Assembly (NCBI RefSeq): GCF_034531395.1
Contig: NZ_JARVCO010000010.1
Coordinates: 682,001 to 746,000 of the forward strand
Direction: 5' to 3'
DNA from: Pontiella agarivorans
GTDB lineage: Bacteria > Verrucomicrobiota > Kiritimatiellia > Kiritimatiellales > Pontiellaceae
DNA: 64,000 nt
Shown: positions 13,090-41,305 of the stretch, in pieces
Layout: each line of letters begins with the position of its first letter
Numbering within the stretch: position 1 is the stretch's first letter
Program-made: the position numbers and the translations under genes
Notes under the pieces: model-generated
What the model saw: only the letters and a program-made list of their open reading frames with translations
Database searches by the model: none
Told to the model about the DNA's origin: nothing

Positions 13090-15180
13090 ATGGATAGCGA
13101 CTACAAAGACCTTGGGGAGGAGTTTGCAACGCGATGGCGGGCGTTAGGTGACTTCTTCGATCCGGCTAACTGCACTTTTGATCCGGGAGAGCAGCGGGAC
13201 TTGAACCCTATTCTGGAAGGGTTAAAACGTGAATCGAAACATTATACAGAACCGGTTTTTGTATGTGAAGGGGGGGAAAAACAGATTTTTAAGGTGCGGG
13301 ATCTGCGGACCGACCGACTCGTGGCGATGGCCAAGCCGCTGAAAAGAGCGAGCGATTCAGATAAGGAGCAGTTTCTGCGGGAAGCGCGGCTGACTGCTTG
13401 TCTGCAGCACCCGAATATCATGTCTATTTATGATCAGGGAATTGATGAAGAGGGAGTTCCTTATTTCACCATGGAGTTTGTCCCCGGGGACAATCTTAAG
13501 GAGATTGTGGAGAAGCTTGTTGGCCGTGATCCCGAATATGTGAAGCGCTATCCACGTGAGCGTCTGCTCGAAATCTTTATCAAAATCTGTGATGCGGTTT
13601 CCTACGCCCACTCGCGGGGCGTAGTGCATCTGGATGTCAAGCCGGCGAATATTAAGGTGGGGCCTTTTGGCGAGGCGGTTCTCTGTGATTGGGGGCTTTC
13701 GAAAATTTTATCGAACGGATTTGATGAGGAGGGGATTGACGGAGGGCGTGCCGACGACCTTCCGAACAGCGATCTGCTTAACGATCTCACTCCCAGCGGA
13801 ACCGTGAAGGGTACACCCGGATTTATTGCGCCGGAGCAGGTTGACGGTTCTGCTGTCATTTCGGAGCAGACTGATGTCTATGCCCTCGGGGCGGTGCTCT
13901 ATTTTATTCTGGCCTATAGCCCGCCGATCAGTGGTGGCTCATTTCATGACATTCTCCGAAAAACCGTCAAAGGTGAACTGACTCCTTTGTCGAAATCGGC
14001 TTCGGGACGGTTTATTCCCAAAGGGCTGGATGCTGTGGCCATGAAAGCACTTGAGTTGAAACTGGCCGATCGCTACGGCTCGGTACGTGAACTGCGGGAG
14101 GAGCTCGATCGGTTTCTTTTAGGCTTTGCCACCGAGGCCCAGCACGCGGGCTGGCTGGATCGAACCGTCTTGCTGTTTAAGCGCAGGCCGGTGGTATTCA
14201 GGGTCATCGGCATCTCCTGTGTTCTTCTTGTGCTGGTGTTGATTTTTTCGTTTGCGCGGGTGGTTCATGTCAAGCAACTCGCCGTTGCTGCCCGAGAGCA
14301 GGCCGAGGAAAATCTGCGCTTATACAAAGACGAATCCTCACGTTCAAAAATGCTTGCTGACAGTATCAGTGCCGTTGCGGTGGATCTGCATAATCGTGAT
14401 AACTATCTTGAAGCGTCAGGAAAGGCACGTCTTCTGGCGGTGCAGCTTGATCAGGAGACCGATCCCGATAAACGAGCCTTCCTTGCTCATGATCTGGCCA
14501 TGCTCAATTTTGTTCGCCAGAATTTTAGAAAGGCCACTAATTTTTTTGAACTTTCCGAGGTTCTTCCGGAGCACGATATTTTCTATGAGCTATCGCTCAA
14601 GTATGCGCCTTTCAAGTCGCGCGACAGGGATTGGCTGGATCCGGTCGAGCTGCGCGATATCATTCTGGCCATTCCGGCAAGAAACGACAATGTGGCCTAC
14701 TCGATGGCGTTTTACTATCTGCGTACAAAGTCGAAGAATCTCATCAAGGAGAAAGAGGTTCTTCCATTGATTGAAACTCTGCTGGACCGCCTTAACCATC
14801 AGGGATGGTATGCGGAACAAACGGATACGCTTTCGTTGGAGCCTACGGATAAGGGGTGGGCATTATCGCTGGCGCGGAGTCCTTATGTTGTATTCAATCT
14901 TCCGCTTCCAGTGGCCAAAACTGAAACCAATGTTCTCAATCCGCTTGGTCTCTATTCGCTGGATATGAGTTATAGCGCATTGTCAGATCCAAGTCATTTG
15001 AACGGAACGGGAATCAAGGTGCTGGATATTCGCGGCATCACCACGTGGACGCGTCCGCAGATTCGTCTGCTGTTCGGATTACAACTTGAAACGCTGATTC
15101 ATTCACTGGATGAGTCAGATGAGTTTCTTGCTGAAATTCTTCCGGATGTTGAGCTGATCCGCGTGAATGCGGCTTTGTAA
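13090..15180 (+). CDS. Membrane Ser/Thr protein kinase (pair 1)
   Basis: The 696-residue protein has a Hanks-type kinase domain (about 55-345), a single membrane helix (about 369-389), a short coiled coil with TPR-like helices (395-500) and an unrecognised C-terminal domain of about 200 residues that should be periplasmic. Catalytic lysine K82 (VAMAK), helix C glutamate E98, the catalytic loop H180-L-D182 with K-P-A-N, D200-W-G and the GTPGFIAPEQ segment are present. The HRD arginine is leucine, so it is a non-RD kinase, and DFG is DWG. It ends 3 bp from the stop of the convergent sigma gene. A close paralogue of the same length and residue numbering lies at 39215. It probably senses something outside the membrane; ligand unknown. 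Confidence 0.9.
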   Translation: MDSDYKDLGEEFATRWRALGDFFDPANCTFDPGEQRDLNPILEGLKRESKHYTEPVFVCEGGEKQIFKVRDLRTDRLVAMAKPLKRASDSDKEQFLREARLTACLQHPNIMSIYDQGIDEEGVPYFTMEFVPGDNLKEIVEKLVGRDPEYVKRYPRERLLEIFIKICDAVSYAHSRGVVHLDVKPANIKVGPFGEAVLCDWGLSKILSNGFDEEGIDGGRADDLPNSDLLNDLTPSGTVKGTPGFIAPEQVDGSAVISEQTDVYALGAVLYFILAYSPPISGGSFHDILRKTVKGELTPLSKSASGRFIPKGLDAVAMKALELKLADRYGSVRELREELDRFLLGFATEAQHAGWLDRTVLLFKRRPVVFRVIGISCVLLVLVLIFSFARVVHVKQLAVAAREQAEENLRLYKDESSRSKMLADSISAVAVDLHNRDNYLEASGKARLLAVQLDQETDPDKRAFLAHDLAMLNFVRQNFRKATNFFELSEVLPEHDIFYELSLKYAPFKSRDRDWLDPVELRDIILAIPARNDNVAYSMAFYYLRTKSKNLIKEKEVLPLIETLLDRLNHQGWYAEQTDTLSLEPTDKGWALSLARSPYVVFNLPLPVAKTETNVLNPLGLYSLDMSYSALSDPSHLNGTGIKVLDIRGITTWTRPQIRLLFGLQLETLIHSLDESDEFLAEILPDVELIRVNAAL

Positions 15181-15183
15181 CTG

Positions 15184-15807
15184 TTACTGCAGATCCTCGC
15201 GCAACTGTTGGATTTCTGCAAAGAAACGGGACTTTACCCGGGCTTTCAGGGTATTGATTGAGTTGCGGGCAATGCCGGTTCGCCGTGCGATTTCATCGGG
15301 AGGGACTCCCTCTATGCTCAGCCGGAAAACCTCCATCGCCTTTTTGCTGAAGTGCGGTTCTATTTTTTTCAAGGCCAGATTGGTAAGGTGAATCTGCCAC
15401 TCTCTTTCGGCAATCTTCTCGATTTCGGGCAGGCGGATTGAATTAAGGTAATTCATCGAGGCATCAGCCACCGCCCGGGTTTCCCGATCCTGTCTGCGCG
15501 ACCGTGAACGAATGAACTGTTTGACTTCATTTTTGGCGACCATTGCCAGATAACTGCGGAAGCGACGAATCTGATCCGTATCCATTTGAGGCAGCTTTTT
15601 CCACAGTTTAACCATCACCTTCTGGTGAATTTCCTCGGTGTCGTGTTCGGAAATATTCATGTTTCGGATCACGGCGTAGATATAGTGCGTGTAGATATTG
15701 GCAAACTCTTTCCACGCGGACTCGTTATACTGATCCTTCACCCGTTCAATCAGTGTTTTTCGGGTTGAGTAGGTTTGGGTGCTGTTATCTGAATGATCCA
15801 TCTTCAT
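15184..15807 (-). CDS. ECF-like RNA polymerase sigma factor (pair 1)
   Basis: A 207-residue sigma-70 family protein with region 2 (about 30-100, core AVIRNMN...EEIHQKVMVKLWKKLP...RRFRSYLA) and region 4 (about 150-200, helix-turn-helix DEIARRTGIARNSINTLKARV). No region 3 is present, as in ECF factors. No anti-sigma factor is adjacent; the neighbour is the kinase, tail-to-tail. The sigma at 41306 is the same length, with the YSTRKTLIERV segment identical, supporting the ATG at 15807. The acidic pair of the region 2.2 helix is kept (DTEE). Regulation by the kinase is an inference from gene pairing. Confidence 0.88.
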   Translation of the reverse strand: MKMDHSDNSTQTYSTRKTLIERVKDQYNESAWKEFANIYTHYIYAVIRNMNISEHDTEEIHQKVMVKLWKKLPQMDTDQIRRFRSYLAMVAKNEVKQFIRSRSRRQDRETRAVADASMNYLNSIRLPEIEKIAEREWQIHLTNLALKKIEPHFSKKAMEVFRLSIEGVPPDEIARRTGIARNSINTLKARVKSRFFAEIQQLREDLQ

Positions 15808-16101: not shown

Positions 16102-17685
16102 ATGAATTGGATAAGAAAAATGGCGCTGTTGATCGTGATGACTGTTGCGGTTTTTCAAGGGTTGGTCAGTGTTGCCGATGAAATCTTTAAATCCGGGACC
16201 GGGACGCTGTCTATCGAGCTGCCGTTGGATCAGTCGCATCCACTGCAGAAAGCGGTTTACGGGGTGAACAATCTGCTGATTTCGCGCCCGCTTGGGTATC
16301 AGCATCCCGGGTTTATAAAAGCGTATGAATACGCCGGCTGTCCGGTGATTCGTTATCCGGGTGGAACATCGGCCAATTATATTAACCACATGACCGGCTA
16401 TTTCGATATTCATAAAGCAGCGGGGTTTCATGTCCCGGAATATGAGCGGGCGAATCGTGGAATTCTGAAACAAAAGGACGGTTTTCAGGTGGAGGAATTC
16501 CTTGGGTTTGTGGCGGAGACGGGAGCCCGTTTCAATCTGGTGCTGAACATTTGCACGATGACCTACGCGGAAAATGAAGCCTATATGCAACGTCTTCAGA
16601 GGGCTGGAGCAAAACTTGAATTTGTTGAGTTGGGAAATGAGCTCTATTACGGCGGTCCCAATCGGGGGTATGGGTATTTTTATCCGGAGGCCTCAGATTA
16701 TGCCGTAGGTATGGAAAAGTATGCTCATATGATTCGGTCCTATTTCCCCGAAGCAAAAATCGGTGTTATTATTCCGGCTGAGATTTTCCAGCATCTGGAT
16801 TTTACGACAGAGAAGCAGAATCGGTTTGGTCAGTGGGTTACTGCACTTCAGAAATACGACTACTACGATGCGGTGATCATGCATATGTACAGCAAGATCG
16901 GGGTGTCACTGAAGGATGGCAAACAGCCAGCCGGTTATGAAGAAGCCTATCGTAATGCACTGAGCTACATGGATAGCCGGTTTGGTCATGCGGTTAAAAA
17001 AGTGAAAGGCTATTTTCCGGGGAAAAAAATATGGGTCACCGAATATGCGTTGGCTTCTGTTTTCGGAAAAGATGCAAAAACCGCACCGTTTAAGGATATC
17101 AGCCAGACGCATGCGGGCAATCTTGGGGCATGTGCCTTTACACTTAAGCTGTTTTCTGAAGCGTCGATTGAACTGGCCAGCCGTCATTCTTTTTCAGGAA
17201 TGGTTGATCTGATGGATAGGAAGAATCTGATGTCCGGAGGAGGTCGTGTCGTGCCGAATTCCGTTCTTGATTTTTTTAAACTCTATTCAGAAGTTGTTCA
17301 GGGGGGAGACCGGTTCCTGACCCCTCTTATTCAAGGGGGACACACCTATACCGGGAATGAAGACGGTGAGTATCCGGATATTGCCGCAGGATATTTTTTT
17401 ACTGAAAATTACGGAAGGCTGGTGCTGATCAATAAAGGTGTAATGGAGTATACGGTCGGGCCGATAACTTCAGATAACACTCCGGCAACGATTGTTGCAT
17501 GCCGTCAAATTTCACCGAAACGGAACCTTTCCATTGAGGAAGCCCTGGCATCGAAAGATGCCGTTAAGCAGCATGAGTTGGCTCAATCTGAACTGAGAAA
17601 TATTATTCTGCCTCCACTGTCGGTAACACTTATTACATTAGAGCAGGAGCCGTTAGCTCCTGATTCTATCGGTCTTTTAAAATAA
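16102..17685 (+). CDS. Exported clan GH-A glycoside hydrolase, family unclear
   Basis: A 527-residue protein with a Sec signal peptide (cleavage near residue 25). The TIM-barrel signatures of clan GH-A are visible: RYPGGTSANY near residue 84, the acid/base in ELGNE180LYY and the nucleophile in WVTE314YAL, with a beta-sandwich-like C-terminal part from about 420. The pattern recalls GH39/GH51/GH79 enzymes (arabinofuranosidase or glucuronidase types) but I cannot assign one. A paralogue at 19131 keeps both glutamates; a sulfatase lies between them. Intergenic gaps are 16 bp and 4 bp, so the three form an operon, presumably acting in the periplasm on a sulfated glycan. Confidence 0.75.
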   Translation: MNWIRKMALLIVMTVAVFQGLVSVADEIFKSGTGTLSIELPLDQSHPLQKAVYGVNNLLISRPLGYQHPGFIKAYEYAGCPVIRYPGGTSANYINHMTGYFDIHKAAGFHVPEYERANRGILKQKDGFQVEEFLGFVAETGARFNLVLNICTMTYAENEAYMQRLQRAGAKLEFVELGNELYYGGPNRGYGYFYPEASDYAVGMEKYAHMIRSYFPEAKIGVIIPAEIFQHLDFTTEKQNRFGQWVTALQKYDYYDAVIMHMYSKIGVSLKDGKQPAGYEEAYRNALSYMDSRFGHAVKKVKGYFPGKKIWVTEYALASVFGKDAKTAPFKDISQTHAGNLGACAFTLKLFSEASIELASRHSFSGMVDLMDRKNLMSGGGRVVPNSVLDFFKLYSEVVQGGDRFLTPLIQGGHTYTGNEDGEYPDIAAGYFFTENYGRLVLINKGVMEYTVGPITSDNTPATIVACRQISPKRNLSIEEALASKDAVKQHELAQSELRNIILPPLSVTLITLEQEPLAPDSIGLLK

Positions 17686-17701
17686 ATAGGAATTATGAAT
17701 T

Positions 17702-19126
17702 ATGAAGCCCGGATATACACTTGTTGCATTATGTTTGATATGCACTTCATCATTGGCATCACGCCCGAATATTTTATTTATAGCCATAGATGATCTGCGG
17801 CCGGAGTTGAATTGCTATGGCGCAACGCAGATTATTTCGCCGAACATTGATCAGCTGGCCGAGCGCGGGCTGGTGTTTAACCGGGCCTATTGCAACGTGC
17901 CGGTTTGCGGAGCATCTCGCGCCAGCTTGCTCACGGGACTTCATCCTTTACCTGATCGTTTCACTACCTATGGGTCACGCGTCGATGAGGATGCTGCCGG
18001 AATTGTTACGCTTCCCCAGCATTTTAAAGAGAACGGGTACTATACCGCCGGTGTAGGAAAGTTGTTTCATCATCCCGATGATGGACTTAAAAGCTGGACG
18101 GTTCTTCCTGTTCGGCCGGACTATCCAAATGATCTGGCGGTGCAGGAGGAGTGGCGCGATTACCGCAGTGCGGAATATGTCGGACTTCATGAACTGGAAC
18201 GTCCCGGCGGAGCAGTGGGGCCGGCCTGGGAAGCTGCTGATGTGGAGGATGATGCTTATTATGACGGGAAGACCACAACGTTAGCGCTTTCACGACTTGA
18301 GATAATGGCAAATCAGGATAAACCCTTCTTTTTGGGGGTAGGGTTTATTCGTCCGCATCTCCCATTCAATGTTCCGAAAAAATATTGGGATCTTTATCCC
18401 GAAGAAAGTATTACGCTGGCTGATAATCCGACCATGCCGGAAGGGGCTCCGAAAGAAGCGGACTTTAATTCGGGAGAGTTGCGGTCGTATAGCAATATTC
18501 CTCGTGGAAAAAATGAGTTGGTGCTGGACCCGGAAACCGCAAAGAATCTGCGCCGCGGCTATTATGCCTGTGTAAGTTATGTGGATACGCAGATCGGAAA
18601 GATCATGAAAAAACTGAATGCACTGGGGCTTGCTGATAATACAATCATCATCGTATGGGGGGATCATGGCTGGAGTTTAGGAGAGCATTCGCATTGGGGT
18701 AAGCATACCTGTTTCAATAATGCGGTTCAGACGCCGTTGATCATGCATGTTCCGGGAGGGGTGTCGGGAAAGAAAAGTGAATCATTAATTGAGTTTGTAG
18801 ATCTCTATCCAACGCTTTGTGATTTGGCTGGACTTCAAAAACCGGATCATCTGCAAGGGCGCAGCCTGGTTCCGGTGCTGAACGATCCTGAAGCTCAGGT
18901 GAATGACTATGTTTTTGCTCGCTGGCATAATGGGGAGACCATTGTCTCATCCCGTTTCAACTATACAGAGTATTATAATAAGAATGGAAAGATGATATCG
19001 AATATGCTGTACGATCGGTTTAAAGATCCCGAAGAAAACGTAAATATTGTGAATAACCCTGAATACAAATCCATTGTGAATAAACTGTCGGCTGCACTTG
19101 AAAAACATATTTCTGAAAGACGGTAA
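17702..19126 (+). CDS. Family S1 sulfatase (iduronate-2-sulfatase-like)
   Basis: A 474-residue exported sulfatase with a Sec signal peptide ending near residue 19. The metal-binding start RPNILFIAIDDL is typical of iduronate-2-sulfatase-type S1 enzymes. The FGly site is C69-G-A-S-R, the alanine variant of C-x-P/A-S-R, followed by LLTG. Also present are GKLFHH, an RPHLPFNVP segment and WGDHGWSLGEH. AGGAATT precedes the ATG. The cysteine must be oxidised to formylglycine by a maturase not found in this window. It sits between two paralogous GH-A enzymes, suggesting that both work on the same sulfated substrate. Confidence 0.92.
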   Translation: MKPGYTLVALCLICTSSLASRPNILFIAIDDLRPELNCYGATQIISPNIDQLAERGLVFNRAYCNVPVCGASRASLLTGLHPLPDRFTTYGSRVDEDAAGIVTLPQHFKENGYYTAGVGKLFHHPDDGLKSWTVLPVRPDYPNDLAVQEEWRDYRSAEYVGLHELERPGGAVGPAWEAADVEDDAYYDGKTTTLALSRLEIMANQDKPFFLGVGFIRPHLPFNVPKKYWDLYPEESITLADNPTMPEGAPKEADFNSGELRSYSNIPRGKNELVLDPETAKNLRRGYYACVSYVDTQIGKIMKKLNALGLADNTIIIVWGDHGWSLGEHSHWGKHTCFNNAVQTPLIMHVPGGVSGKKSESLIEFVDLYPTLCDLAGLQKPDHLQGRSLVPVLNDPEAQVNDYVFARWHNGETIVSSRFNYTEYYNKNGKMISNMLYDRFKDPEENVNIVNNPEYKSIVNKLSAALEKHISERR

Positions 19127-19130
19127 ATAT

Positions 19131-20651
19131 ATGCGATGCACGTTTTTGTTAATGGGAATGTGGGTGTTGCTTCTTGGAGGAACGTTCACTTATGGGAGGT
19201 CTGAATCCAAATTGGATATAACGTTGCGACTGGATGAACGGACCGATTTGCAGAAGAGTGTTTTCGGAGCGAACTGTCTCCTGATCGGTCGCCCGGTTTG
19301 GTATGACCATCCGGAATTTATAAAACGCTATGAAGAAGCAGGAACACCTTTTTTCCGTTTCCCCGGTGGTACACCGGCAAACTATTACAATCCCTTCAAA
19401 GGGATTAACGATGAAATCCCTGAGTCCGGTCGCGATTATGCGCGCAGGAATCAGGAGATTCTGGAGCGGACCAATGGTAAGGGGCAGACGCCTGCCGGCT
19501 TTTTTCGTTTTGCAAAAAAGACCGAGGCCCGTTACAGCGTCGTGGTGAACATGAGTACCCTGAGTGTCGAGGAGAATAAAAAGTGGTTAACCGAAGCAAA
19601 ACGCAGGGGAGCGGATATCGCCGCCTTCGAACTGGGCAATGAGCTCTATTTCGGCAGTTACCGATGGGCGTTCCAAACACCGGAGGATTATCTGGAGTGC
19701 GCAAAGAAAACGACGGGAATGCTGAGGCGTATTTATCCCAAGGCCAAAATCGGTGTTCTGGTGCCCAGTCATATCTATACCGATGAATCGTTTCTAAGCG
19801 ATGATGTTCCGGCGGGATTAAGACGACAGGAGGAGTGGATGGAGATGTTGCGGGGAGAGGATTTTTTCGACTCCGTGGTTATCCACCTTTATAATACGGT
19901 CGGGATGGATGGAAAAACGAAGCGAAAGAATTTTCTGCCTTACCCGGAAGCGTATAAGCATGCGCTGGCGCATCTGAATCACAGTCTGGATATTACCTGT
20001 GATCTGCTTGAAAACGAATTTCCCGGCAAGTCGATCTGGATCACGGAATATGGTCTCGGCGGTTTTTCCGGGGATCTTAGAAGTTATAAGCTGCGGGGTT
20101 CGCATTTGGGCGGTTTGTTCAGCGGGCTGATGCTGATGAAGTTTTTTGAACGTCCGTCTGTGGAAGTTTCCAGTTGGCATTCGTTCAGCCATTTTTTCGA
20201 CTATATCGGCGGAGAACAGGGATTGGGCGAAGAGCCGCATTTGCTTTACCACCATTTTAAGTTTTTCGCGGAGCCCGTGAATAAGAGCGATTATTATGCC
20301 CCGGTGAATATTGCAGGATGCCGGAAGCGGGAAGGCACCCCGCGGCATCCCGGTCAATATCCTGAAGTGGAGGGGGGCGGTTTTTTCAGTCGTTCCGGCG
20401 GGTATCTGGTGTTGATTAATAAACTGGATACGCCGTATCGCCTGGATCAATTCGAGGCTTTGTATAAAGGCCGGCAACGAAAAGTAACCTTTGTGAGGGG
20501 ACTGCAGCTTCGTCCGAGGGAAGATCAGGAGCTTTCCACGGCGCTCAGGGATCAGGTTAAACTTTCGGAAGTTGAGTTTGAGGGTGCTGATTTGAATGCC
20601 GTTGAAATTGCACCGTATTCCATTACGCGTCTCGAATTTGAATGGCGCTAG
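19131..20651 (+). CDS. Exported clan GH-A glycoside hydrolase, paralogue
   Basis: A 506-residue paralogue of the protein at 16102. It shares the RFPGGTPANYYNP segment, the acid/base glutamate in ELGNELYFG and the nucleophile glutamate in WITEYGLGG. The ATG at 19131 gives a good signal peptide (CTFLLMGMWVLLLGG); the alternative TTG at 19098 lies inside the sulfatase gene. The two copies have diverged well beyond a recent duplication and may have different linkage preferences. No enzyme family could be fixed by eye; GH39/51/79 types are the nearest impressions. Confidence 0.72.
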   Translation: MRCTFLLMGMWVLLLGGTFTYGRSESKLDITLRLDERTDLQKSVFGANCLLIGRPVWYDHPEFIKRYEEAGTPFFRFPGGTPANYYNPFKGINDEIPESGRDYARRNQEILERTNGKGQTPAGFFRFAKKTEARYSVVVNMSTLSVEENKKWLTEAKRRGADIAAFELGNELYFGSYRWAFQTPEDYLECAKKTTGMLRRIYPKAKIGVLVPSHIYTDESFLSDDVPAGLRRQEEWMEMLRGEDFFDSVVIHLYNTVGMDGKTKRKNFLPYPEAYKHALAHLNHSLDITCDLLENEFPGKSIWITEYGLGGFSGDLRSYKLRGSHLGGLFSGLMLMKFFERPSVEVSSWHSFSHFFDYIGGEQGLGEEPHLLYHHFKFFAEPVNKSDYYAPVNIAGCRKREGTPRHPGQYPEVEGGGFFSRSGGYLVLINKLDTPYRLDQFEALYKGRQRKVTFVRGLQLRPREDQELSTALRDQVKLSEVEFEGADLNAVEIAPYSITRLEFEWR

Positions 20652-20758
20652 CAGGGCGTCTTATATAGCCCTTCACGCGTGGCAATCACGTGGCAGGTCC
20701 GGGGAGATTCTGACCCAAACCGATTTCATTCGACCGAAACGGCAAATGTCGTTCATGA

Positions 20759-20776
20759 ATGCCGTTTAACGGCATC
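20759..20776 (+). promoter_or_regulatory. CGGCATC motif within a palindrome, before CBM6-sulfatase
   Basis: ATGCCGTT-T-AACGGCAT is a near-perfect 17-nt palindrome; its right half contains CGGCATC (20770-20776), 34 nt before the ATG at 20811. CGTTCA precedes it. Confidence 0.45.
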
Positions 20777-20810
20777 TACTATTAAACGAAGGTTTAAAAA
20801 TGAGGTGGAA

Positions 20811-23666
20811 ATGAATGTTAGCCGTTTGTTGTGTGCTGCAGGTGCATTGCTGGTTTCAGCCGTCTGGGCGGAAGCGTATACCAATGTAATTATCGTTATG
20901 GCCGATGATTTTGGTTATGAATGCGTTGAGGACTATGGCGGAGAATCTTATTCTACTCCTGAAATGTCTGAAATGGCCCTTGAAGGAGTGCGGTTTGAAC
21001 ATGCGCATTCGCAACCCATTTGTACACCTTCCCGCGTTCAGATTATGTCTGGAAAATACAACGTTCGGAATTATACCAAGTTTGCCACGCTGGATCAGAG
21101 TCAGGATACGTTCGGGAATCCATTTAAGAATGCAGGTTATGAAACCTGTATTGTCGGTAAATGGCAGTTGGGAGGAAATCAACAGACCCTTGAAAACTTT
21201 GGTTTTGATCATCACTGTGTCTGGCGTATGGGTTCGGCCAATCAGGAACGGTATTGGGGACCTATTTTTGAAGTGGATGGGGAAAGTAAGTCGTATCCAG
21301 GGCAATATGGCCCTGATATCCAGCAGAACTATGTCACAAATTTTATTCAGGGATGTATTGATGAAGATAAACCGTTTTTCCTCTACTACCCCATTTTGTT
21401 GACGCACTCTCCCTATCAGCCAACCCCTGACTCCGCCATTGTGAGTACACCCGGATGGGATTCTACGTATTGGACGGAGGCTCAGTCGGAGACCAATTAT
21501 TTTGGTGATATGGTTGAATATATGGACAAGCAGCTGGGGGAGCTGCGTGATTTCCTGGAGCAAAAAGGCATCGATGATGAAACGCTGCTGATTTTTACGG
21601 GGGACAACGGAACCGGAATGTCGATTTATTCGATGCAGAATGGGGTATTGGTTCGAGGAGGCAAGGGGCAGACGAAAGAGTCGGGAACGCGCGTTCCATT
21701 ATTTGCCGCCATGCCGGGGACCGTGCAGTCCAATCTGGTTGTTTCTCCGATTGTTGATTTTTCCGATATCTATGCAACGATTATGGATATTACAGATCTT
21801 CCGTACATTCCCGGGGAAGAGGATGATAAAGATGGAGTCAGTTTTCTTCCTCAACTGAAAGGGGATGCCGGCACACCACGGGATCACAGCTATTGCTGGT
21901 ACATGAAGCGTACGGATATGACGGATATCCGTCAGTTTGTTCAGGATGAAACCTATAAACTGTATATAACCGGTAAGTTTTACAATAAAACAAACGACGT
22001 GCTGGAAACCACTTCGCTTGCGGATGGGGTGCTTACTCCCGGTGAGCTGGCGCTGAAATCCTATTTCAACAGTCTGCTGATGCAGTACGATGCATTGCGG
22101 CCGGACGGGATTCCCTATAACAACAGCATTCCATATCCAATCCCTGGAAAGATCGAGGCCGAGTACTACGATTATGGCTTGGAAGGGATCACCTATCATG
22201 ATTCCACCGAAGATTCCAATGCAGGAGGAGATAAGCGGACTGATGATGTTGATATTCATACGGTTGGCGGAGCGACTGTTATTGATGAAATTTCAGCAGG
22301 AGAGTGGCTGGAATATACCGTGAACGTCGAAACGAATGGTACGTATGCGATCGTTGTTCGCTACGCTGCCGAATCTGCGGGAGGTCGTCTTCATTTCGAG
22401 GTGAATGGTGTGCCGGTTTCCGGAACGCTAGAACTGCCGGCTACCGGCTCTTTTTCGACATATTCAACCGTTGAGATCAACGATGTGCAGCTTTCAGGCG
22501 GAACCCGCAAGCTGACCATGGTGTTTGATCAACCCGGAATGAGTATAGACCGTTTTACAGCGAGTTATGTCGGCCCTCCGGGTTCCTTGCCGCAACCTCC
22601 GGTCAGTGCCACTTTAATCGATTATCAGCATGAAGATTCAGACCGTAATACCACCTTGCCGAATTTGGAAAATGGCGGTACTGATCAAACGGGCTGGAAT
22701 GCCGATTCTGTCTACATCAACCCGACCGGGTCCGGAGATCTAAAGATCGAAGAGCCTGCGAGTGGCGGTAATATTCAGTTCAATCTTTCTGCTCCGCTGA
22801 CCAATGGGATGGTTGAAGTGGAATTTCGAATTTCCAGTTATGACCTTACGGGAATCTCCAATATCCGTGATGGCATGGGCTTTGAACTGTGGAGCGCAAC
22901 GCAAAGCGCGAACCAGTCCGTTAAAATGAAAACGGAATGGTTCACCTCCGGAGCGCGCTTGAGAATGGCCGGGCCGAATGCAGATGGAAGCGGCTTTCAA
23001 TATCCTTCGGTTTCTCTGGGATCAGATGCTTCCACCAATGGAATTATCTACCGTTTCGAAGCTGATCTCGATGCCGGAACATATCAGGTCTTTTCCAAAC
23101 GGGATTCTGATACGGAATTCAGTGCAATGGGTGTTCCCGGCGTATGCAGCAACATCACGCAGGTGCGCCTGCAAACCACGGCGAATCCGGCCTGGCCTTC
23201 CGGCACCTTTGTGAATATTGATTACTTTACGTTGAAACAAATACTGCCGGAGACCGGAGGACTTGTTTTTGCAGACTGGGCGGCGCAATTTCCAACTCTT
23301 GGAGCTCTGACGAACTCTACCGATAATCCCGACGGTGACGCATTCAACAATCTCTATGAATTCGCATTTGGAGGCATTCCGACAAATCGTGAAAATCTGG
23401 GACATTTACCGGTTTTCCAGGCATTGGAAGACAGTACCGGCCACTGGTTTGAGTTTGTTTACGCCCGCCGCATCAATCCGGAACAGTCGGGTCTCGTGTA
23501 TACACTTGAAAAAAATACAAATCTGGTAGACGGCATCTGGAACAGTGCCAGTAACGAGCTGGTTGCCGTTGGAATCCTTGATGAAAATTTTGAGGTGGTC
23601 ACGAATCGTTTTCCAACTGCCGAACTTGGGGCCCAATTTATTCAGCTTCAGGTTGATGAGCTGTAA
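20811..23666 (+). CDS. Multidomain sulfatase with CBM6 and C-terminal modules
   Basis: A 951-residue exported protein. Domains in order: Sec signal peptide (1-22), S1 sulfatase with FGly site C71-T-P-S-R (23 to about 430), a CBM6/CBM35-type carbohydrate-binding domain starting at IPGKIEAEYYD (about 443-587), a jelly-roll-like module beginning LIDYQHED (about 600-810), and a C-terminal module with DNPDGDAFNNLYEFA (about 818-951). The last two recur in other proteins here. The ATG at 20811 has AGGTGG and a signal peptide; the longer frame from 20679 has neither. Linking sulfatase to binding domains suggests action on insoluble or surface-bound polysaccharide. Confidence 0.9.
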   Translation: MNVSRLLCAAGALLVSAVWAEAYTNVIIVMADDFGYECVEDYGGESYSTPEMSEMALEGVRFEHAHSQPICTPSRVQIMSGKYNVRNYTKFATLDQSQDTFGNPFKNAGYETCIVGKWQLGGNQQTLENFGFDHHCVWRMGSANQERYWGPIFEVDGESKSYPGQYGPDIQQNYVTNFIQGCIDEDKPFFLYYPILLTHSPYQPTPDSAIVSTPGWDSTYWTEAQSETNYFGDMVEYMDKQLGELRDFLEQKGIDDETLLIFTGDNGTGMSIYSMQNGVLVRGGKGQTKESGTRVPLFAAMPGTVQSNLVVSPIVDFSDIYATIMDITDLPYIPGEEDDKDGVSFLPQLKGDAGTPRDHSYCWYMKRTDMTDIRQFVQDETYKLYITGKFYNKTNDVLETTSLADGVLTPGELALKSYFNSLLMQYDALRPDGIPYNNSIPYPIPGKIEAEYYDYGLEGITYHDSTEDSNAGGDKRTDDVDIHTVGGATVIDEISAGEWLEYTVNVETNGTYAIVVRYAAESAGGRLHFEVNGVPVSGTLELPATGSFSTYSTVEINDVQLSGGTRKLTMVFDQPGMSIDRFTASYVGPPGSLPQPPVSATLIDYQHEDSDRNTTLPNLENGGTDQTGWNADSVYINPTGSGDLKIEEPASGGNIQFNLSAPLTNGMVEVEFRISSYDLTGISNIRDGMGFELWSATQSANQSVKMKTEWFTSGARLRMAGPNADGSGFQYPSVSLGSDASTNGIIYRFEADLDAGTYQVFSKRDSDTEFSAMGVPGVCSNITQVRLQTTANPAWPSGTFVNIDYFTLKQILPETGGLVFADWAAQFPTLGALTNSTDNPDGDAFNNLYEFAFGGIPTNRENLGHLPVFQALEDSTGHWFEFVYARRINPEQSGLVYTLEKNTNLVDGIWNSASNELVAVGILDENFEVVTNRFPTAELGAQFIQLQVDEL

Positions 23667-23687
23667 ACTTAGTTGAAAGGAATAGAA

Positions 23688-25385
23688 ATGAATCGTAGGA
23701 GTTTTGTAGCAGGAGTTGGTGTTTCAGCGGTCGTGGTACCCCGGGTGTGGGCTGGGGCAGCGGAGAAACCGAATATTATTTTTGTGATGTCGGATGATCA
23801 TACCTCTCAGGCGGTAGGGGTGTATGGTGGCCGGCTGGCGAAACTGAATCCTACGCCGACCATTGATGCACTTGCAAACGATGGGATCGTGATGGAAAAC
23901 GCATTCTGTACCAATGCCATCTGTACGCCCAGCCGGGCCTGCATCATGACCGGGCAATACAGTGCGGTGAATGGCTGCCCGACCCTTAACGATGCACTTC
24001 CGCCCGAGCGGCAATACCTTTCCATGGAAATGAATAAGGCCGGCTATCAAACGGCCATTGTTGGGAAATGGCATCTGCATAAACGACCTTCAACTTTCGA
24101 TTACTATAAAGTACTGCCCGGGCAGGGAACCTATTTTGATCCGGTTTTCTATGAAAAGGGCGCCAGGGGAACGATTCAGCAAGGCCGGAAAAAGTATGGG
24201 CCTGACGCGGTGCAGATGAAGGGACATTCTTCGGACTGCATTGCCGATTCCGCATTGGAGTGGTTTAAGACGAAGCGCGATCCGAACCAACCCTTTTTCC
24301 TGAAGTTGCACTTCAAAGCACCGCATGATTATTTTGAATATGCGCCGCGCTATGAATCCTACCTGGCCGATGTGGATATTCCGGAACCGGCCAATATGTG
24401 GGACCAGAAAAGAAACGGATCGATCGCCACGGGCGGTGCCAACGATGAATTGCGTCACATCATCGGAACTTCCGTGGGTCGCAGGAATCATCGGCGCAAC
24501 TATGCTGAGGATCCGCACACCCCCTGGGCGGATAAGATTGATCATAATTTGAGCGACGAGGAGATCACGAAACAGGCCTATCAACTATACATGAAGGCCT
24601 ATTTGCGTTGTGTGAAAGGGGTAGATGATAACCTTAAGCGAGTAATAGATTATCTGAAAGCGGAAGGGCTCTACGACAATACGGTCATCATGTATACCGG
24701 AGATCAGGGCTTCTATCTCGGCGAACATGATCTGATTGATAAACGCTGGGCTTACGAAGAAGCAATGCGCATGCCGTTTGTTATGCGTTATCCGCAATCG
24801 ATCAAGGCGGGGCAACGTTCGGATGTCATTATTGAAAATGTCGATTACGCACCTACCATGCTGGACTTTGCCGGAGTACCGACTCCCGGCTATATGCAAG
24901 GCCGGAGTTTTAAAACTATTCTGGAATCGGGTGTTGAACCGAAGACGTGGAAAAAGGCGGCCTACTATCATTACTGGATGCATATGGCGCATCACGACAA
25001 CCCCGCGCACATTGCCATCCGTACCAAACGGTATAAGCTGATCTTTTTCTACGGAACGGACTGGCGAAAAAATGCCGATACGCCGGATACACCGCCAGCG
25101 TGGGAGCTTTACGATCTCAAAAAGGATCCGCATGAAGATAACAACGTCTACGATCATCCGGAGTACGCTGAAATTGTCACTCAGCTGAAAAAGGACCTGA
25201 AAGCGTTGCGTAAAGAGTATCGGGAAGATGATCCCAAATTTGCGTTCAATAAAGCCATCAACGACTACTGGGAGTATGGTGATGAGGCGCGTGCCAAAGC
25301 CGTTGAAATTTCGCATTCGGTGGTGCAGAAAGTGAAAGACGGAACCTGGCCGCATAATACGCCAGCGCAGATGAAAGCCTATTAA
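23688..25385 (+). CDS. Family S1 sulfatase with Tat signal
   Basis: A 565-residue sulfatase with a twin-arginine leader (NRRSFVAG, hydrophobic stretch, VWAGAAE). The catalytic start is KPNIIFVMSDDHT, the FGly site C79-T-P-S-R-A-C with IMTG, and GKWHLHK plus YTGDQGFYLGEHDL are in place. A C-terminal region of about 50 residues after the usual ending is helical. The start at 23688 follows AAAGGAATAG at good spacing; an upstream TTG is less likely. Tat export suggests folding before transport. It lies 21 bp after the CBM6-sulfatase gene, so they probably share a transcript. Confidence 0.92.
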   Translation: MNRRSFVAGVGVSAVVVPRVWAGAAEKPNIIFVMSDDHTSQAVGVYGGRLAKLNPTPTIDALANDGIVMENAFCTNAICTPSRACIMTGQYSAVNGCPTLNDALPPERQYLSMEMNKAGYQTAIVGKWHLHKRPSTFDYYKVLPGQGTYFDPVFYEKGARGTIQQGRKKYGPDAVQMKGHSSDCIADSALEWFKTKRDPNQPFFLKLHFKAPHDYFEYAPRYESYLADVDIPEPANMWDQKRNGSIATGGANDELRHIIGTSVGRRNHRRNYAEDPHTPWADKIDHNLSDEEITKQAYQLYMKAYLRCVKGVDDNLKRVIDYLKAEGLYDNTVIMYTGDQGFYLGEHDLIDKRWAYEEAMRMPFVMRYPQSIKAGQRSDVIIENVDYAPTMLDFAGVPTPGYMQGRSFKTILESGVEPKTWKKAAYYHYWMHMAHHDNPAHIAIRTKRYKLIFFYGTDWRKNADTPDTPPAWELYDLKKDPHEDNNVYDHPEYAEIVTQLKKDLKALRKEYREDDPKFAFNKAINDYWEYGDEARAKAVEISHSVVQKVKDGTWPHNTPAQMKAY

Positions 25386-25492: not shown

Positions 25493-26989
25493 ATGAAAAA
25501 AAGTAGAATCCTATTAACAATTGCCGTGATGGCAACCGGACTGGCGAACGCAGCAGAGCAGGTTTATTTGCCTACGGAAGAATCGCTTTCAACGCATAAT
25601 GCTGAGCCGGAATGGCTGAAGGATGCCAAGCTGGGCATCTATTTCCACTGGGGCGTCTATTCCGTTCCGGCCTTTCATGACGAATGGTATCCGCGCCGGA
25701 TGCATCAGCCCGGCGAGGATTGTTTCGAGCATCATAAGAAAACCTATGGCGATCAGTCAGAATTCGGCTATCACGAGTTCGTAAAGGATTTCAAAGCCGA
25801 GCATTTTAATCCGGAGGAATGGGCCGACCTGTTCCAGAAAGCCGGTGCACGGTTTGCCGGTCCGGTGGCTGAGCACCATGATGGTTTTTCCATGTGGGAC
25901 AGTGATGTAACGCCTTGGAATGCGATGGATATGGGGCCGAAGCGTGACATTCTCGGCGAACTCTTCCAGTCTTTGGAAAAGCGCGACATGAAGACCATTG
26001 CCACGTTCCATCACTCGCGCAATCTACAACGCTATGACGAGTCGGAATGGAATAAAAAGAAGGGGCAGAAGTTTAAAGATAGCCATTTTCCTTATAAGAA
26101 GGAATGGTTCACCGGTTCGGACGACCCGAAGCTTCAGTATATGTATGGGAATATGCCGGAAGCCCAGTGGAATGAAGAAGTCTGGTTAGGAAAACTCAAG
26201 GAAGTGATTGATACCTATCACCCGGATATCATCTGGTTTGATACTTGGATGGACAGCGTCCCGCTGGACTACCGCTATGCGTTTTCCGCCTACTATTTAA
26301 ACGCGGCCGAAAAGTGGGGTAAGGACGTTTGCATAGTTCGTAAACAACAGGATCTTCCGCTTAGTTTTTCGATTAATGATCAGGAAAAGTCCCGGGAGCC
26401 GAAGGCATTGCCGCAGCTCTGGATGACCGACGACACGATCAGCACCGGAAGCTGGTGCTATACGACCGACCTCGAAATCAAACCGCTCTATAAAGTGGTG
26501 CATGCGCTGATTGACACCATCAGTAAAAACGGGGTGATGCTGTTGAATGTATCACCGATGGCGAATGGGATTATTCCTGATGAGCAGCGTGAGTCCCTGT
26601 TATCTCTGGGTGCCTGGCTGAAAAAGAACGGTAAAGCCGTCTATGAAACACGTCCGTGGATCGAAGCCGCAGAAGGGCCCACGGCAGAACCGGGCGGCGG
26701 ATACAGCGACCATAAAGTATTCCTGGCACTGGAATATTCCGTAAAGGATATCCGCTACACCGCTTCAAAGGATGGGAAAACGGTCTACGCTTTTACCATG
26801 GGGATTCCGGCCAAAGGGGAAACCATTCTGTTGGAAACCTTCGCGAAGAAAAAAATTGCTGTGGCGGATGTCACGTTGCTTGACGGCAAAAAAGTGAAAT
26901 GGGCAATGACCGATAAAGGGTTGGAGATCAAACTGAAGAAAGCTGTAGATAATGAGTTTGCTGCGATCTTTAAAATTACACTGAAATAA
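25493..26989 (+). CDS. GH29 alpha-L-fucosidase, first copy
   Basis: A 498-residue exported enzyme (signal peptide 1-20) that should release alpha-linked L-fucose by a retaining mechanism. GH29 signatures: LGIYFHWGVYS (48-57), AEHHDGFSMWDS (H128-H-D130) and the nucleophile D250 in IIWFDTW. The C-terminal beta-sandwich domain starts near 400. Acid/base residues are poorly conserved in GH29 and were not assigned. The gene has its own terminator and is followed by a paralogue of identical length. It has one TTCCA-N5-TGGAA palindrome at 25964. Confidence 0.93.
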   Translation: MKKSRILLTIAVMATGLANAAEQVYLPTEESLSTHNAEPEWLKDAKLGIYFHWGVYSVPAFHDEWYPRRMHQPGEDCFEHHKKTYGDQSEFGYHEFVKDFKAEHFNPEEWADLFQKAGARFAGPVAEHHDGFSMWDSDVTPWNAMDMGPKRDILGELFQSLEKRDMKTIATFHHSRNLQRYDESEWNKKKGQKFKDSHFPYKKEWFTGSDDPKLQYMYGNMPEAQWNEEVWLGKLKEVIDTYHPDIIWFDTWMDSVPLDYRYAFSAYYLNAAEKWGKDVCIVRKQQDLPLSFSINDQEKSREPKALPQLWMTDDTISTGSWCYTTDLEIKPLYKVVHALIDTISKNGVMLLNVSPMANGIIPDEQRESLLSLGAWLKKNGKAVYETRPWIEAAEGPTAEPGGGYSDHKVFLALEYSVKDIRYTASKDGKTVYAFTMGIPAKGETILLETFAKKKIAVADVTLLDGKKVKWAMTDKGLEIKLKKAVDNEFAAIFKITLK

Positions 26990-27063: not shown

Positions 27064-28560
27064 ATGATAAAGAATATTATAAGCGGAATAGTCGTGGGAT
27101 CCTGCCTGGCTCAGGCGGACGTTTTCGAGCCGACGGTGATATCGTTGTCTCAGCATGAAGCGGCGCCGGAATGGCTGCAGGACGGCAAGCTGGGTATCTA
27201 TTTCCACTGGGGAGTCTATTCGGTGGCGGCTTATGGCAATGAATGGTATCCGCGAAGCATCCATTTTGAAGGAAGCGGCCCGAATAAATTTCATCGGGAG
27301 AAATACGGCGAACTCAATGAGTTCGGTTATCACGATCTGATTCCACTGTTTAAGGCAGAACACTTTGATGCGGATGAATGGGCGGCCCTGTTTAAGGCTT
27401 CAGGGGCTTGTTTCGCGGGGCCGGTGGCTGAGCATCACGATGGGTTTGCGATGTGGGACAGTGCAGTCACTCCGTGGAACGCCATGGATATGGGGCCGAA
27501 GCGCGATCTGGTCGGTGAGATCCTGACGGCGGTGCGTAAGCAGGATCTGAAAACGATTACGACGTTCCATCATGCCCGGAATCTACAGCGGTTGAATCGT
27601 TCGTGGAAAAAAGAACATGCGAAGGGGATTCATAAAGGGTTCAAAGGAACTTTTTATCCCTACCATCCGGAGTTGCCGACAGGCAGCGCGGATCCGAAAC
27701 TTCGCATGCTGTATGGAAACATGCCTGAGGGGCAATGGCTGGAGGAGCTGTGGCTGCCTAAACTGAAAGAGGTCATCGATGCGTATCATCCTGATCTCAT
27801 CTGGTTCGATAGCACGCTGGGGAAAATCCCAATGAATTATCGCCTTGAATTTGCGGCTTATTATCTGAATGCGGCAGAACAATGGGAGGGTGCTCAGGTG
27901 GGTATTATTCGGAAGCTTGCAGCTTTCCCTGATTCTTTTTCGATTCGCGACCATGAAAAATCGCGTGAGCCGGATATTCTTCCGGACGTGTGGATGACTG
28001 ATGATACCTTGAGTACGGGCAGTTGGTCCTATACGGAAGATCTTCAAATTAAACCTCTTTACAAAGTAGTACATGCCTTGATCGATACTGTAAGTAAAAA
28101 CGGCGTCGTGTTATTGAATATTTCGCCCAAGGCCGATGGGACAATTCCGCAGAATCAGAAAGATGCATTGCTGGGGCTGGGGGCGTGGCTGAAACAAAAT
28201 GGTGAGGCCATTTACGGTACCCGGCCGTGGATCAATGCGGCAGAAGGGCCGGCTGCAGCTCCGGAAGGGGGGCTTAAAAATGCTAAAAAGTTCCTGGCGT
28301 TGGAATATTCCGCGAAGGATATTCGCTACACCGCTTCCAAGGATGGGAAAACAGTTTATGCCTTCGCACTCGGTATTCCTGGGAAAGACGAATCGATTGT
28401 GCTGAAAACTTTTTTGGAAAAAGGAATCGAAGTGGATCGTGTGGAGTTGCTCAACGGAGATGCGGTTCAATGGGAAATGTCAGACACCGGTCTGGAAGTT
28501 CATCTCATAACACCTGCAACGGAAGATATGGCGGTCATTTTAAGAATTTCACTGAACTGA
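27064..28560 (+). CDS. GH29 alpha-L-fucosidase, second copy
   Basis: Also 498 residues, exported (signal peptide to about residue 18, CLAQA). It keeps LGIYFHWGVYS, AEHHDGFAMWDS and the nucleophile D249 in LIWFDST. The nucleophile context differs from the first copy (FDSTLGK against FDTWMDS), and so do the stretches around residues 60-85 and 180-210, which could change substrate choice. The gene is a tandem duplicate; the two copies clearly align end to end. GGAGAG lies before the ATG. Confidence 0.92.
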   Translation: MIKNIISGIVVGSCLAQADVFEPTVISLSQHEAAPEWLQDGKLGIYFHWGVYSVAAYGNEWYPRSIHFEGSGPNKFHREKYGELNEFGYHDLIPLFKAEHFDADEWAALFKASGACFAGPVAEHHDGFAMWDSAVTPWNAMDMGPKRDLVGEILTAVRKQDLKTITTFHHARNLQRLNRSWKKEHAKGIHKGFKGTFYPYHPELPTGSADPKLRMLYGNMPEGQWLEELWLPKLKEVIDAYHPDLIWFDSTLGKIPMNYRLEFAAYYLNAAEQWEGAQVGIIRKLAAFPDSFSIRDHEKSREPDILPDVWMTDDTLSTGSWSYTEDLQIKPLYKVVHALIDTVSKNGVVLLNISPKADGTIPQNQKDALLGLGAWLKQNGEAIYGTRPWINAAEGPAAAPEGGLKNAKKFLALEYSAKDIRYTASKDGKTVYAFALGIPGKDESIVLKTFLEKGIEVDRVELLNGDAVQWEMSDTGLEVHLITPATEDMAVILRISLN

Positions 28561-28757: not shown

Positions 28758-31700
28758 ATGACGAATCGATTGTTAATCGGATTGGCTATGGCCGGCGTGA
28801 TTGCGATAAGTGCGCAGGCGCAACTGTACTCAGAGGATTTTGAACAGCCAATTACACGGGTGGATGTTGGAAATGGTAATGCAAAATTGAATACTGATTT
28901 CCAGATTGGAGAATGGGCCTATACCGATTTGAACGCAGGAAATAATGGTAATATTACTACTGTTGACGGTTCAACAGCGATCATTCAGGACAGCGGTGTC
29001 GGCCAGCGTGGTATGGTTATTGCCATCGATGCGTCCACATGGAGCACAGGAAACAAGAGCCTCAGCTTCAAATCGACTTCTGTATCCGGAGCAAACTCGG
29101 TTTATTATGGGATTTTTTCCGTGAACGCAAACGCTGATCCAATTGTTGATTTGGGTAAGGGAGGCGGAGCTTTTGCTAATTGCGGAAAGCCGAGTCCGGC
29201 AGTTGCCGAGCTGAAAGAGATTGGGGCGTATGCGGCAACGGGAACCACATTAACAAACTTTACCTGGACGGCTGGTGCGGCTGATACGCTGATGCTTGTT
29301 TTTAATAGCGGAGATAATTCAGAAGTTGGTCTGGATGACATTGTGATTGATGATGCTGCGGCAACCGGTCCGGCAACGGTGGGACTTTCTCCTGACTCGG
29401 AACTGGTTATTTCGGTTACACATCCGGCAACCGTAGCGAACAATGATTTGGTTGTTACTTATATCGAAGGCGGAGCGTTGGCTGACGGACAAATTGAGTC
29501 CGTTAATATTTATTCGAACGGCTTTAGCCTGGTCGGCACTTATTCTTTTCCTATTGCGTTATCCGATTCCGATACCGCGCAGTTTGATATTCAGTTTGAT
29601 GCTGCGGCAGTTGGGGTTGTCAACGGGGCAAGCGCTAACCGGATTGGACTGGCGGAGGTCATTTGGTCCGAAAATGGAGGAGGCACTTACACCAATACAA
29701 TCGCACTTGATGGGGATTACAATAATCCGCCCTTTGATTTGGATATAGGCGATCAGGTTGGCGGTGCCGACCAGCCGATCATCATGACGATGATTGTTCC
29801 TGATTCGGCGGTAACGAATACCGTTGCGGTCAACTATACGGAAGGGCCGGCGCATACCAATGCGCAGATTTCTTCGATCGTGTTCTCAAATGCAACGCAT
29901 ATCGGGTTCTCTGCTGATCCTGCATCGTTCGAGTTGAGTGATCCGGCTCCATCGACGACGACGTTCAACCTTGTATTTGACAACAGTGTGGCCGGTTTGA
30001 CGCACAAGCAGTCGGCCTCTGCTGATATGGTGGTGACTTACAATGAGCTGGGCGGTCCCGACCAGACCTCGGTGATCCCGGTGTCGGTTTCCTATTACAA
30101 CCCGCCTGTCGGCGTTATTCAGCTGAATATGGGCGAGAGCGTGAATGTGGTGAATGACAGCGTTTACGGGAATAGAAAGTTGAACGAATTTGACGCTTAT
30201 ACTAATCAGTTCAATATTGCATCGGGCGGCAGTCAGGATACGTCCAATGGTCGCATTCAGGTCAATTCCGGGGCTACCAATATTCGAGCTCTGTGGAATC
30301 TGGTGGAATCCGGAACTGCCGGGATGGATAACTTCGGAGAAGTGGATACCGTTCCGTTGACCAACGGTCTTTATCAATATCAATTCGATTACGAAGTGGT
30401 GAATAACAGCGGTGCGGAAGCGTACTGGTCGATTGATGCGTATGCTTTGATTGATCAAGGATCAACCGGAACAGTTGATTATGTCCAATTGGATGATTCT
30501 GAGGGAACGCTGGAAAAACGGGTTCCCGTTGCTCAAGGGCTTGCCTCATTCAGCCAGCATTCCGGAGGCATACTTACAGGGTCAGGCAACGTGAGTCGCT
30601 CCAGTGGAGCGGTTACTGTTAATGTGACCAATGGGTATGATTCAATCTTTATTATCCAGGGTGCGGGCGGTACAGATGTCCGTATTTATGATCTCTCATT
30701 GGTTCGTATCGGTGACTTTGAAGTGGGGCCTCCTCCGTTCAACAGTCCCAATGCGGTTGTTGCCGCAACGTTCGATGATGCAAATTCCACGAATGCGATC
30801 ATCAGTGGTTTGGACTTGACGGATCTCAACAATGTGACCGATACAAATGGGGTTTCCATTGCAAATACATTCCGGGGTAATAATCTTGCCCGGGCAGGAA
30901 AAAGCCTGCAGAGCACAGTAAGTCCTACAGCGGGAAAAGTGAACATGTTACTGGTGCGTGCCGGCACATCCGGTTACGACGATGTGGGCTTTCAGGATAC
31001 AATTGCGCTGAGTGAAGGGGTTTATGACCTGACCTTTGATGTCGATACCACTCCGGGCAATTTTTCCACGAATACCTCTTCCGTTGGTGTTGATTTATAC
31101 GCTCTCTCAGGAATTGTGGTCGGTGATGCGAATAACACCGTTCGTATTGGTCATCAGAATAAAGATGGAAATGGTATTCAGACTTTTGGTGCCGCTTCAA
31201 AAACGCTACTGGCTTCTGTGTCCTATACGAATGATTTCACGGGAACGGTAACGTTGAGCAATATGAACGTTTTAGCCGGGCAGGATGTGCTGATCGTACT
31301 GCGTCATCAGGAAGGGCCGGATCCGATCTTCGACAACATTGAACTGGTTCGCACCGGGGATCTGGCATCGACCGGATATGATGCCTGGGTGATTCTGAAT
31401 GGATTATATGGACCCGATGCCGATCTGCAAGCGGATCTTGAAAACGGTGGTGCGGGTGACGGCCTCAATAATCTGATGGAATATGCTCTAGGCGGCGATC
31501 CGAATGTCGCTGATTCGGGTATTGTTCTCCAGCAAAGCGTGAGTGGTGGAGTTTTTCAGCATGTCTACAATGAACGTACGGATGATGAATCGCTGACATT
31601 CACGGTTGAGCTGGATCAGATACGCAATCTTTCTTATGCAGACTGGCAGGAAGAAGGGCTCACTGAAACCCGCGGGGTGGATGACGGTACTTTCCAAACG

Positions 31701-31766
31701 GTAACCAATACAACGGATACGCTTGAATCTGTTAACTTCATCCGGTTGAAAGTTGATAAAAATTAA
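28758..31766 (+). CDS. Large exported multi-domain protein, function unknown
   Basis: A 1002-residue protein with a Sec signal peptide (cleaved near residue 22, AQAQ). Domains by eye: an N-terminal jelly-roll domain ending in VGLDDIVIDD (about 22-200), two related immunoglobulin-like repeats (about 205-330 and 335-455, each with NTVAVNYTEG or NDLVVTYIEG), two more jelly-roll domains (about 460-655 and 660-870, both ending in a LVR-x-GD segment), and a C-terminal module with GDGLNNLMEYALGGDP. There is no catalytic signature. It probably binds polysaccharide or the cell surface. AGGAGGAG precedes the start. It has its own promoter region and terminator. Confidence 0.8.
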   Translation: MTNRLLIGLAMAGVIAISAQAQLYSEDFEQPITRVDVGNGNAKLNTDFQIGEWAYTDLNAGNNGNITTVDGSTAIIQDSGVGQRGMVIAIDASTWSTGNKSLSFKSTSVSGANSVYYGIFSVNANADPIVDLGKGGGAFANCGKPSPAVAELKEIGAYAATGTTLTNFTWTAGAADTLMLVFNSGDNSEVGLDDIVIDDAAATGPATVGLSPDSELVISVTHPATVANNDLVVTYIEGGALADGQIESVNIYSNGFSLVGTYSFPIALSDSDTAQFDIQFDAAAVGVVNGASANRIGLAEVIWSENGGGTYTNTIALDGDYNNPPFDLDIGDQVGGADQPIIMTMIVPDSAVTNTVAVNYTEGPAHTNAQISSIVFSNATHIGFSADPASFELSDPAPSTTTFNLVFDNSVAGLTHKQSASADMVVTYNELGGPDQTSVIPVSVSYYNPPVGVIQLNMGESVNVVNDSVYGNRKLNEFDAYTNQFNIASGGSQDTSNGRIQVNSGATNIRALWNLVESGTAGMDNFGEVDTVPLTNGLYQYQFDYEVVNNSGAEAYWSIDAYALIDQGSTGTVDYVQLDDSEGTLEKRVPVAQGLASFSQHSGGILTGSGNVSRSSGAVTVNVTNGYDSIFIIQGAGGTDVRIYDLSLVRIGDFEVGPPPFNSPNAVVAATFDDANSTNAIISGLDLTDLNNVTDTNGVSIANTFRGNNLARAGKSLQSTVSPTAGKVNMLLVRAGTSGYDDVGFQDTIALSEGVYDLTFDVDTTPGNFSTNTSSVGVDLYALSGIVVGDANNTVRIGHQNKDGNGIQTFGAASKTLLASVSYTNDFTGTVTLSNMNVLAGQDVLIVLRHQEGPDPIFDNIELVRTGDLASTGYDAWVILNGLYGPDADLQADLENGGAGDGLNNLMEYALGGDPNVADSGIVLQQSVSGGVFQHVYNERTDDESLTFTVELDQIRNLSYADWQEEGLTETRGVDDGTFQTVTNTTDTLESVNFIRLKVDKN

Positions 31767-31888: not shown

Positions 31889-31960
31889 AGGTATGCGTAA
31901 AGCGGATATGAGACGTGCCCTCAGAAGATTCGCTAAATAATGCATACAGGAGGAAAAGAA

Positions 31961-37296: not shown

Positions 37297-37327
37297 CTAT
37301 TGGAAACAGTAAAAATAGGTATTGCAT

Positions 37328-39130: not shown

Positions 39131-39214
39131 ATTGTTTTTAAAGTAGCTTACGGTCAGGAAATATAATGCAAAACCGGGCTTTCGGTTCAGTGCAATGCTA
39201 TAGTTTTGATACGC

Positions 39215-41302: not shown

Positions 41303-41305
41303 GCC

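Follow-up and report, generated by a model that had tools for sequence, protein, structure and literature searches.

In a 64,000-nucleotide stretch of DNA (hereafter the window) from Pontiella agarivorans, a marine bacterium that feeds on seaweed, two paralogous genes with the catalytic residues of clan GH-A, which we call A and B, closely flank a sulfatase gene, S, and we see slightly less than an even chance that the three encode a probably secreted three-enzyme module, in a cluster for a sulfated, fucose-containing and probably xylose-containing algal glycan, in which S desulfates and A and B then cut. Specifically, S would take off a sulfate that probably sits at O2 of a residue resembling xylose or a uronate, and A and B, as predicted retaining clan GH-A glycosidases that are probably exo-acting, would cut the linkage uncovered by S. 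The Asn that precedes the acid/base in clan GH-A usually binds the sugar through its 2-hydroxyl; catalysis should therefore fail while a 2-O-sulfate is in place, which would put S first in the order of steps. The parts of this triad, GH-A glycosidases and an S1 sulfatase, are of known kinds. Sulfated algal glycans are hard to degrade and slow the turnover of carbon in the sea, and the triad offers a compact test of 2-O-desulfation gating clan GH-A hydrolysis.

All three genes lie on the forward strand, with A at 16,102–17,685 (527 aa), S at 17,702–19,126 (474 aa) and B at 19,131–20,651 (506 aa). The gaps are 16 bp between A and S and 4 bp between S and B, the latter with the ATG at 19,131 as the start of B (506 aa) in place of the automatic ORF start, a TTG at 19,098 within S. 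The ORFs and the conserved glutamates thus confirm the layout described in the first-pass annotation, two GH-A enzymes flanking a sulfatase at gaps of 16 and 4 bp. The three genes may well be co-transcribed, and by eye a signal for secretion is apparent in A, S and B alike, the N-terminus of A being signal-peptide-like. Promoter-like sites (15, fewer than the shuffled mean of 20.6) and terminator-like sites (21, near the shuffled mean of 17.2) were not used as evidence.

A and B are 31–33% identical over almost their entire length (E = 5e-77), which makes them true paralogues, as the same annotation had proposed, and a search of the organism's own genome with A returned A and B only. All 31 aligned rows keep the Asn-Glu acid/base pair and the nucleophile Glu, which speaks for the module. 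In A, the predicted acid/base is E180, after N179 (codon at 16,639–16,641), and the predicted nucleophile is E314 (17,041–17,043), both assigned from the 31-row alignment; the same alignment gives E171, after N170 (19,641–19,643), and E306 (20,046–20,048) in B, all on the forward strand. The full set of invariant residues, in B numbering, is M1, R76, G80, E167, G169, N170, E171, H252, Y254 and E306. Compared with B, A has four additional residues just after the acid/base, and at position 361 it has an Arg in place of the Trp of B and its closest rows; this is the only Arg at that column among 31 rows, and it aligns with the last predicted barrel strand of B. Because of these differences beside the catalytic residues, which we also take in favor of the module, A and B probably differ in specificity. 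The idea that they are recent sister (tandem) duplicates found no support. In a quick tree of 55 of 56 rows (one row was removed by length limits), both fall within one eight-row set (98); there, B clusters with three further Pontiella rows (99) and A branches by itself, so that the pair does not have the appearance of a recent tandem duplication. This tree omits L057, L063 and L066, which are the same genes as L062, L058 and L019, and also L083, L084 and L088.

Up to an E of 0.01, neither A nor B matches Pfam or NCBIfam. With the limit relaxed to 10, the sole Pfam line is Glyco_hydro_cc for A (0.081, under its cut-off), and the GH51 Pfam domain appears for neither protein at either threshold, bearing in mind that HMMER filters drop most weak matches; phmmer searches with A or B against PDB sequences gave no match at E up to 1. 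The earlier statement that neither enzyme fits a GH family is therefore true for Pfam and NCBIfam models, and "unclassified" means here outside those two collections only, CAZy (dbCAN) models not being part of the comparison. Many CAZy families are absent from Pfam and NCBIfam.

An AlphaFold2 model of B built from 31 rows is confident (mean pLDDT 90.4), another point in favor of the module, and consists of a barrel and a beta-sandwich; the model of A, from two rows, was poor (pLDDT 46.5). The modelled (beta/alpha)8 barrel, the Asn-Glu pair and the Glu nucleophile place B in clan GH-A, and the placement of A in the same clan is supported by its alignment to B. Against the PDB, the B model ranked GH51 first (3ug3, Z 30.9, rmsd 2.8, 404 residues aligned, 14% identity), as it did in Foldseek, followed by GH79 (Z 28.6) and GH44 (about Z 24), all of them clan GH-A families. 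Sequence profiles matched GH51 at 3e-6 (7 rows) and 7.5e-17 (31 rows) and GH79 at 2.7e-5 (31 rows); a further GH51 match at 4e-25 was discounted, the alignment in question containing distant rows. The fold ranking and the profile matches together suggest a place for the A/B family close to GH51 and GH79 within clan GH-A.

GH51 being the nearest solved family both by profile and by the fold of B, A and B might be GH51 alpha-L-arabinofuranosidases that have diverged and attack a glycan bearing arabinose, with S a coincidental neighbor. We consider this quite improbable: besides the absence of the GH51 Pfam domain, identity to B is only about 14%, and the Asn of PGGN, which is present in the 2c7f sequence and has an active-site role in GH51, is found in 0 of 31 rows, the column reading T in 20, S in 7, D in 2, E in 1 and A in 1, so that the family mostly shows PGGT or PGGS. 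P. agarivorans is also reported not to grow on D-arabinose, a result that concerns the D-form and not L-arabinose (PMC10880615). Alternatively, A and/or B could be uronidases of the GH79 type, taking off a residue resembling glucuronate or iduronate once S has cleared the 2-sulfate, a reading to which we assign a low probability. It draws on GH79 as the second-nearest fold, on the profile match, on the kinship of S with iduronate-2-sulfatase (6.5e-71) and on the position of Arg361 in the alignment of A to the last barrel strand of B; however, the GH79 similarity is below that to GH51, and Arg361 is present in A alone, not B. It also seems unlikely that A and B are endo-acting and cut the backbone of a sulfated polymer, S being independent of them: the GH44 endoglucanases and xyloglucanases match the B fold too, the enzymes look secreted by eye and 6HHM, to which S is closest, is described as an endo-enzyme (PMC9096561), but the structural similarity to GH44 is below that to GH51 and GH79.

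It is tempting to speculate that A and B found a GH family of their own (or two subfamilies) not yet in CAZy, made up of retaining enzymes specialized for residues bared by 2-O-desulfation, with B taking a neutral pentose and A an anionic residue via Arg361, such that one sulfatase would feed two paralogous cutters; we hold this to be rather doubtful. If A and B do form their own family, the known route by which sulfated algal glycans are broken down would gain a step.

Returning to the desulfation-first module, S matches Pfam Sulfatase PF00884 at 1.9e-50 and contains CGASR at residues 69–73. The C/S-x-P/A-S-R formylglycine motif is thus present, and S is an intact S1 sulfatase whose formylglycine cysteine, C69 as read from the ORF translation, is encoded at 17,906–17,908 on the forward strand. 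Its best solved relatives are 6HHM (1e-87) and two iduronate-2-sulfatase entries (6.5e-71 and 1.3e-70), followed by choline-sulfatase (1.8e-49), and on this ranking S looks S1_7-like. 6HHM is P18_S1_7, described as an endo-2-sulfo-D-xylose sulfatase of ulvan in S1_7 (PMC9096561), and its rank as nearest relative favors the module; human iduronate-2-sulfatase has been placed in S1_7 as well (PMC6388578). The first-pass annotation had called S iduronate-2-sulfatase-like, which stands for its second-nearest solved relative but gives way to the nearer xylose-2-sulfatase 6HHM. With the best solved relatives of S acting on xylose-2-sulfate and iduronate-2-sulfate, the accompanying proposal, that a sulfated uronate or pentose unit is attacked in two steps, is plausible. 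Counting against the module are other activities in S1_7, among them a 4-sulfo-galactose kappa-carrageenan sulfatase (PMC9096561) and an endo-kappa-carrageenan sulfatase (PMC6388578), and with such enzymes for other sulfates in S1_7, O2 as the target of S is uncertain. In the two other Pontiella strains, S1_7 genes are reported as fused to GH10 or GH32 domains (PMC6388578); by analogy, such fusions would suit a xylan-like partner, though they are genes other than S.

Downstream of B, still on the forward strand, the cluster contains, by Pfam, a second sulfatase with CBM6/35 (GTG ORF at 20,679–23,666, for which the in-frame ATG at 20,811, preceding a signal-peptide-like stretch, is a likelier start than the GTG), a third sulfatase (23,673–25,385), two GH29 alpha-L-fucosidases (25,493–26,989 and 27,064–28,560) and, at its far end, a fourth sulfatase (37,322–39,130). 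Two fucosidases and three further sulfatases bring fucose into the substrate picture, from which the original proposal had omitted it. Among genes scanned in the 16–39 kb region, none has a GH10, GH43 or GH120 domain, which counts against the module; a second cluster, starting at 43 kb, has GH43, GH30, three GH10, RhaT, epimerase and sulfatase genes. Three large cluster genes, at 28,758–31,766, 31,940–33,739 and 43,171–44,961, match nothing in Pfam up to an E of 0.01, and the 599-aa product of the one at 31,940 shares its C-terminal part with proteins of a locus in P. sulfatireligans.

The host, P. agarivorans NLcol2, has a genome of 4,436,865 bases in 12 contigs and is reported to grow on xylose and on xylan (PMC10880615), which favors the module, while the results text of the same source gives no growth on L-fucose or Macrocystis fucoidan, both of which count against it. 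That source is itself inconsistent, in that fucoidan growth, denied in the results, is listed in the species description. A xylose-yielding, fucose-decorated sulfated glycan would fit both the cluster and these growth facts.

The A/B family is spread over several phyla, yet rare. In a sample of the phylum, 13 of 387 genomes matched a two-row alignment at E up to 0.001, mostly weakly; one weak match, behind L010, was rejected, as it contains two stops and an ORF on that strand there is unrelated and Cas9-like by eye. In a sample of the class, 9 of 288 genomes matched with B, and E fell below 1e-90 only in its own genome, P. sulfatireligans F21 and a second Pontiella (G458). A broader scan of contigs found no relative with A and B alone and 44 loci with a seven-row alignment, from Bacteroidota, Spirochaetota, Pseudomonadota, Bacillota, Chloroflexota and other phyla, at best-segment identities of 40–52% in Pontiella, 35% in Aquimarina, 30% in Saprospiraceae and 22–28% elsewhere, apart from one short segment at 32%. 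Our literature search found no paper naming the A/B pair or its family, which is weak evidence, most subscription journals lying outside that search.

Sulfatase pairing as a mark of the whole family was put to the test and found no support. A sulfatase lies within two ORFs of a family member at 7 of the 37 loci counted, and sulfatases make up 9 of 128 ORFs at distance 1–2 versus 4 of 114 at distance 4 or more (Fisher p = 0.26; ORFs of at least 150 aa only, with distance 3, where 3 of 51 are sulfatases, outside both groups). Seven of the 44 loci were dropped: L083 and L084 as presumed near relatives of L079, L088 and L096 (both Pedobacter) as presumed copies of L085, beside which the tree sets L096, and L089, L093 and L103 because none of their ORFs matched the family model. 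None of 56 other loci (L019–L024 and L056–L105, some places fetched twice) has family members immediately on both sides of a sulfatase. The two-step proposal thus loses ground on the layout, which is confined to the window among these loci, and on the missing enrichment, which counts against the module as well. Looser arrangements exist: L020 (G172) has family members on both sides of a sulfatase but separated from it by other genes, and two or more members occur near a sulfatase in L061 (G458) and L077 (Persicobacter). The copies most like B, in L056 and L057/L062, have no sulfatase detected within the stretch fetched, again to the detriment of the module. These closest relatives of B (51–54%; L056 10,206–11,657 and L057 8,698–10,314), present in both congeners, adjoin a gene that by eye resembles mevalonate decarboxylase. 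Distant family members in L068 and L070 lie in clusters that by eye resemble exopolysaccharide-synthesis clusters, so that catabolism may not be the role of the wider family in every case.

Upstream of A lie a Ser/Thr protein kinase gene, recognized by sequence match (13,090–15,180, forward strand), and, convergent with it, a gene for an ECF-type sigma factor (15,184–15,807, reverse strand; Pfam sigma-70 region 2, with a region 4 match under the cut-off). Such adjacent kinase and sigma genes border both clusters of the window (13,090–15,807 and 39,206–41,929), and a third pair (C10:746043–748697) lies just beyond it, in a stretch with a weak sulfatase match (25%). Genome-wide, nine of ten relatives of the kinase lie within about 2 kb of a relative of the sigma factor; the pair at C12:671893 has no sulfatase match in the surrounding 20 kb. 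It is possible that the kinase at 13,090–15,180 regulates the cluster. By eye, acidic residues are retained in the sigma factors where region 2.2 is presumed to lie, which suggests that they are not plain ECF43 members. EcfP/PknT is described as a case of a sigma factor controlled by phosphorylation (PMC8999054), and control of the present sigma factors in this style is only an idea, by analogy.

Among known systems, the best solved relative of S is P18_S1_7 (6HHM, 1e-87), the ulvan xylose-2-sulfatase of Formosa agariphila. With the GH51 alpha-L-arabinofuranosidases (2c7f/2c8n, 1pz3 and 3ug3), A and B have in common the barrel and beta-sandwich, the Arg of R-[FY]-P-G-G, the Asn-Glu pair and the Glu nucleophile, but their family is only about 14% identical, mostly has PGGT/S for PGGN and is without the Pfam GH51 domain. 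The GH79 beta-glucuronidases and heparanases (7psj, 7pr9 and 5la4) have the same two-domain fold as B (Z 26.2–28.6), whereas identity to B is 12–17% and the profile match is weak (2.7e-5). The closest counterpart of the whole region is the partly syntenic locus of P. sulfatireligans F21 (L058/L063), which shares with the window the kinase/sigma pair (59% and 80% identical), a B-like GH-A gene (40%), an S-like sulfatase (43%) and a GH29 gene (78% identical to that at 25,493–26,989). It differs in having a single GH-A gene, with a gene for a GH120-like beta-helix protein (match to the GH120 insertion domain, 1.5e-20) between the GH-A gene and the sulfatase, and then GH10; by adding GH120-like and GH10 genes to the shared set, this locus lends further support to the two-step attack and to the module formed by A, S and B.
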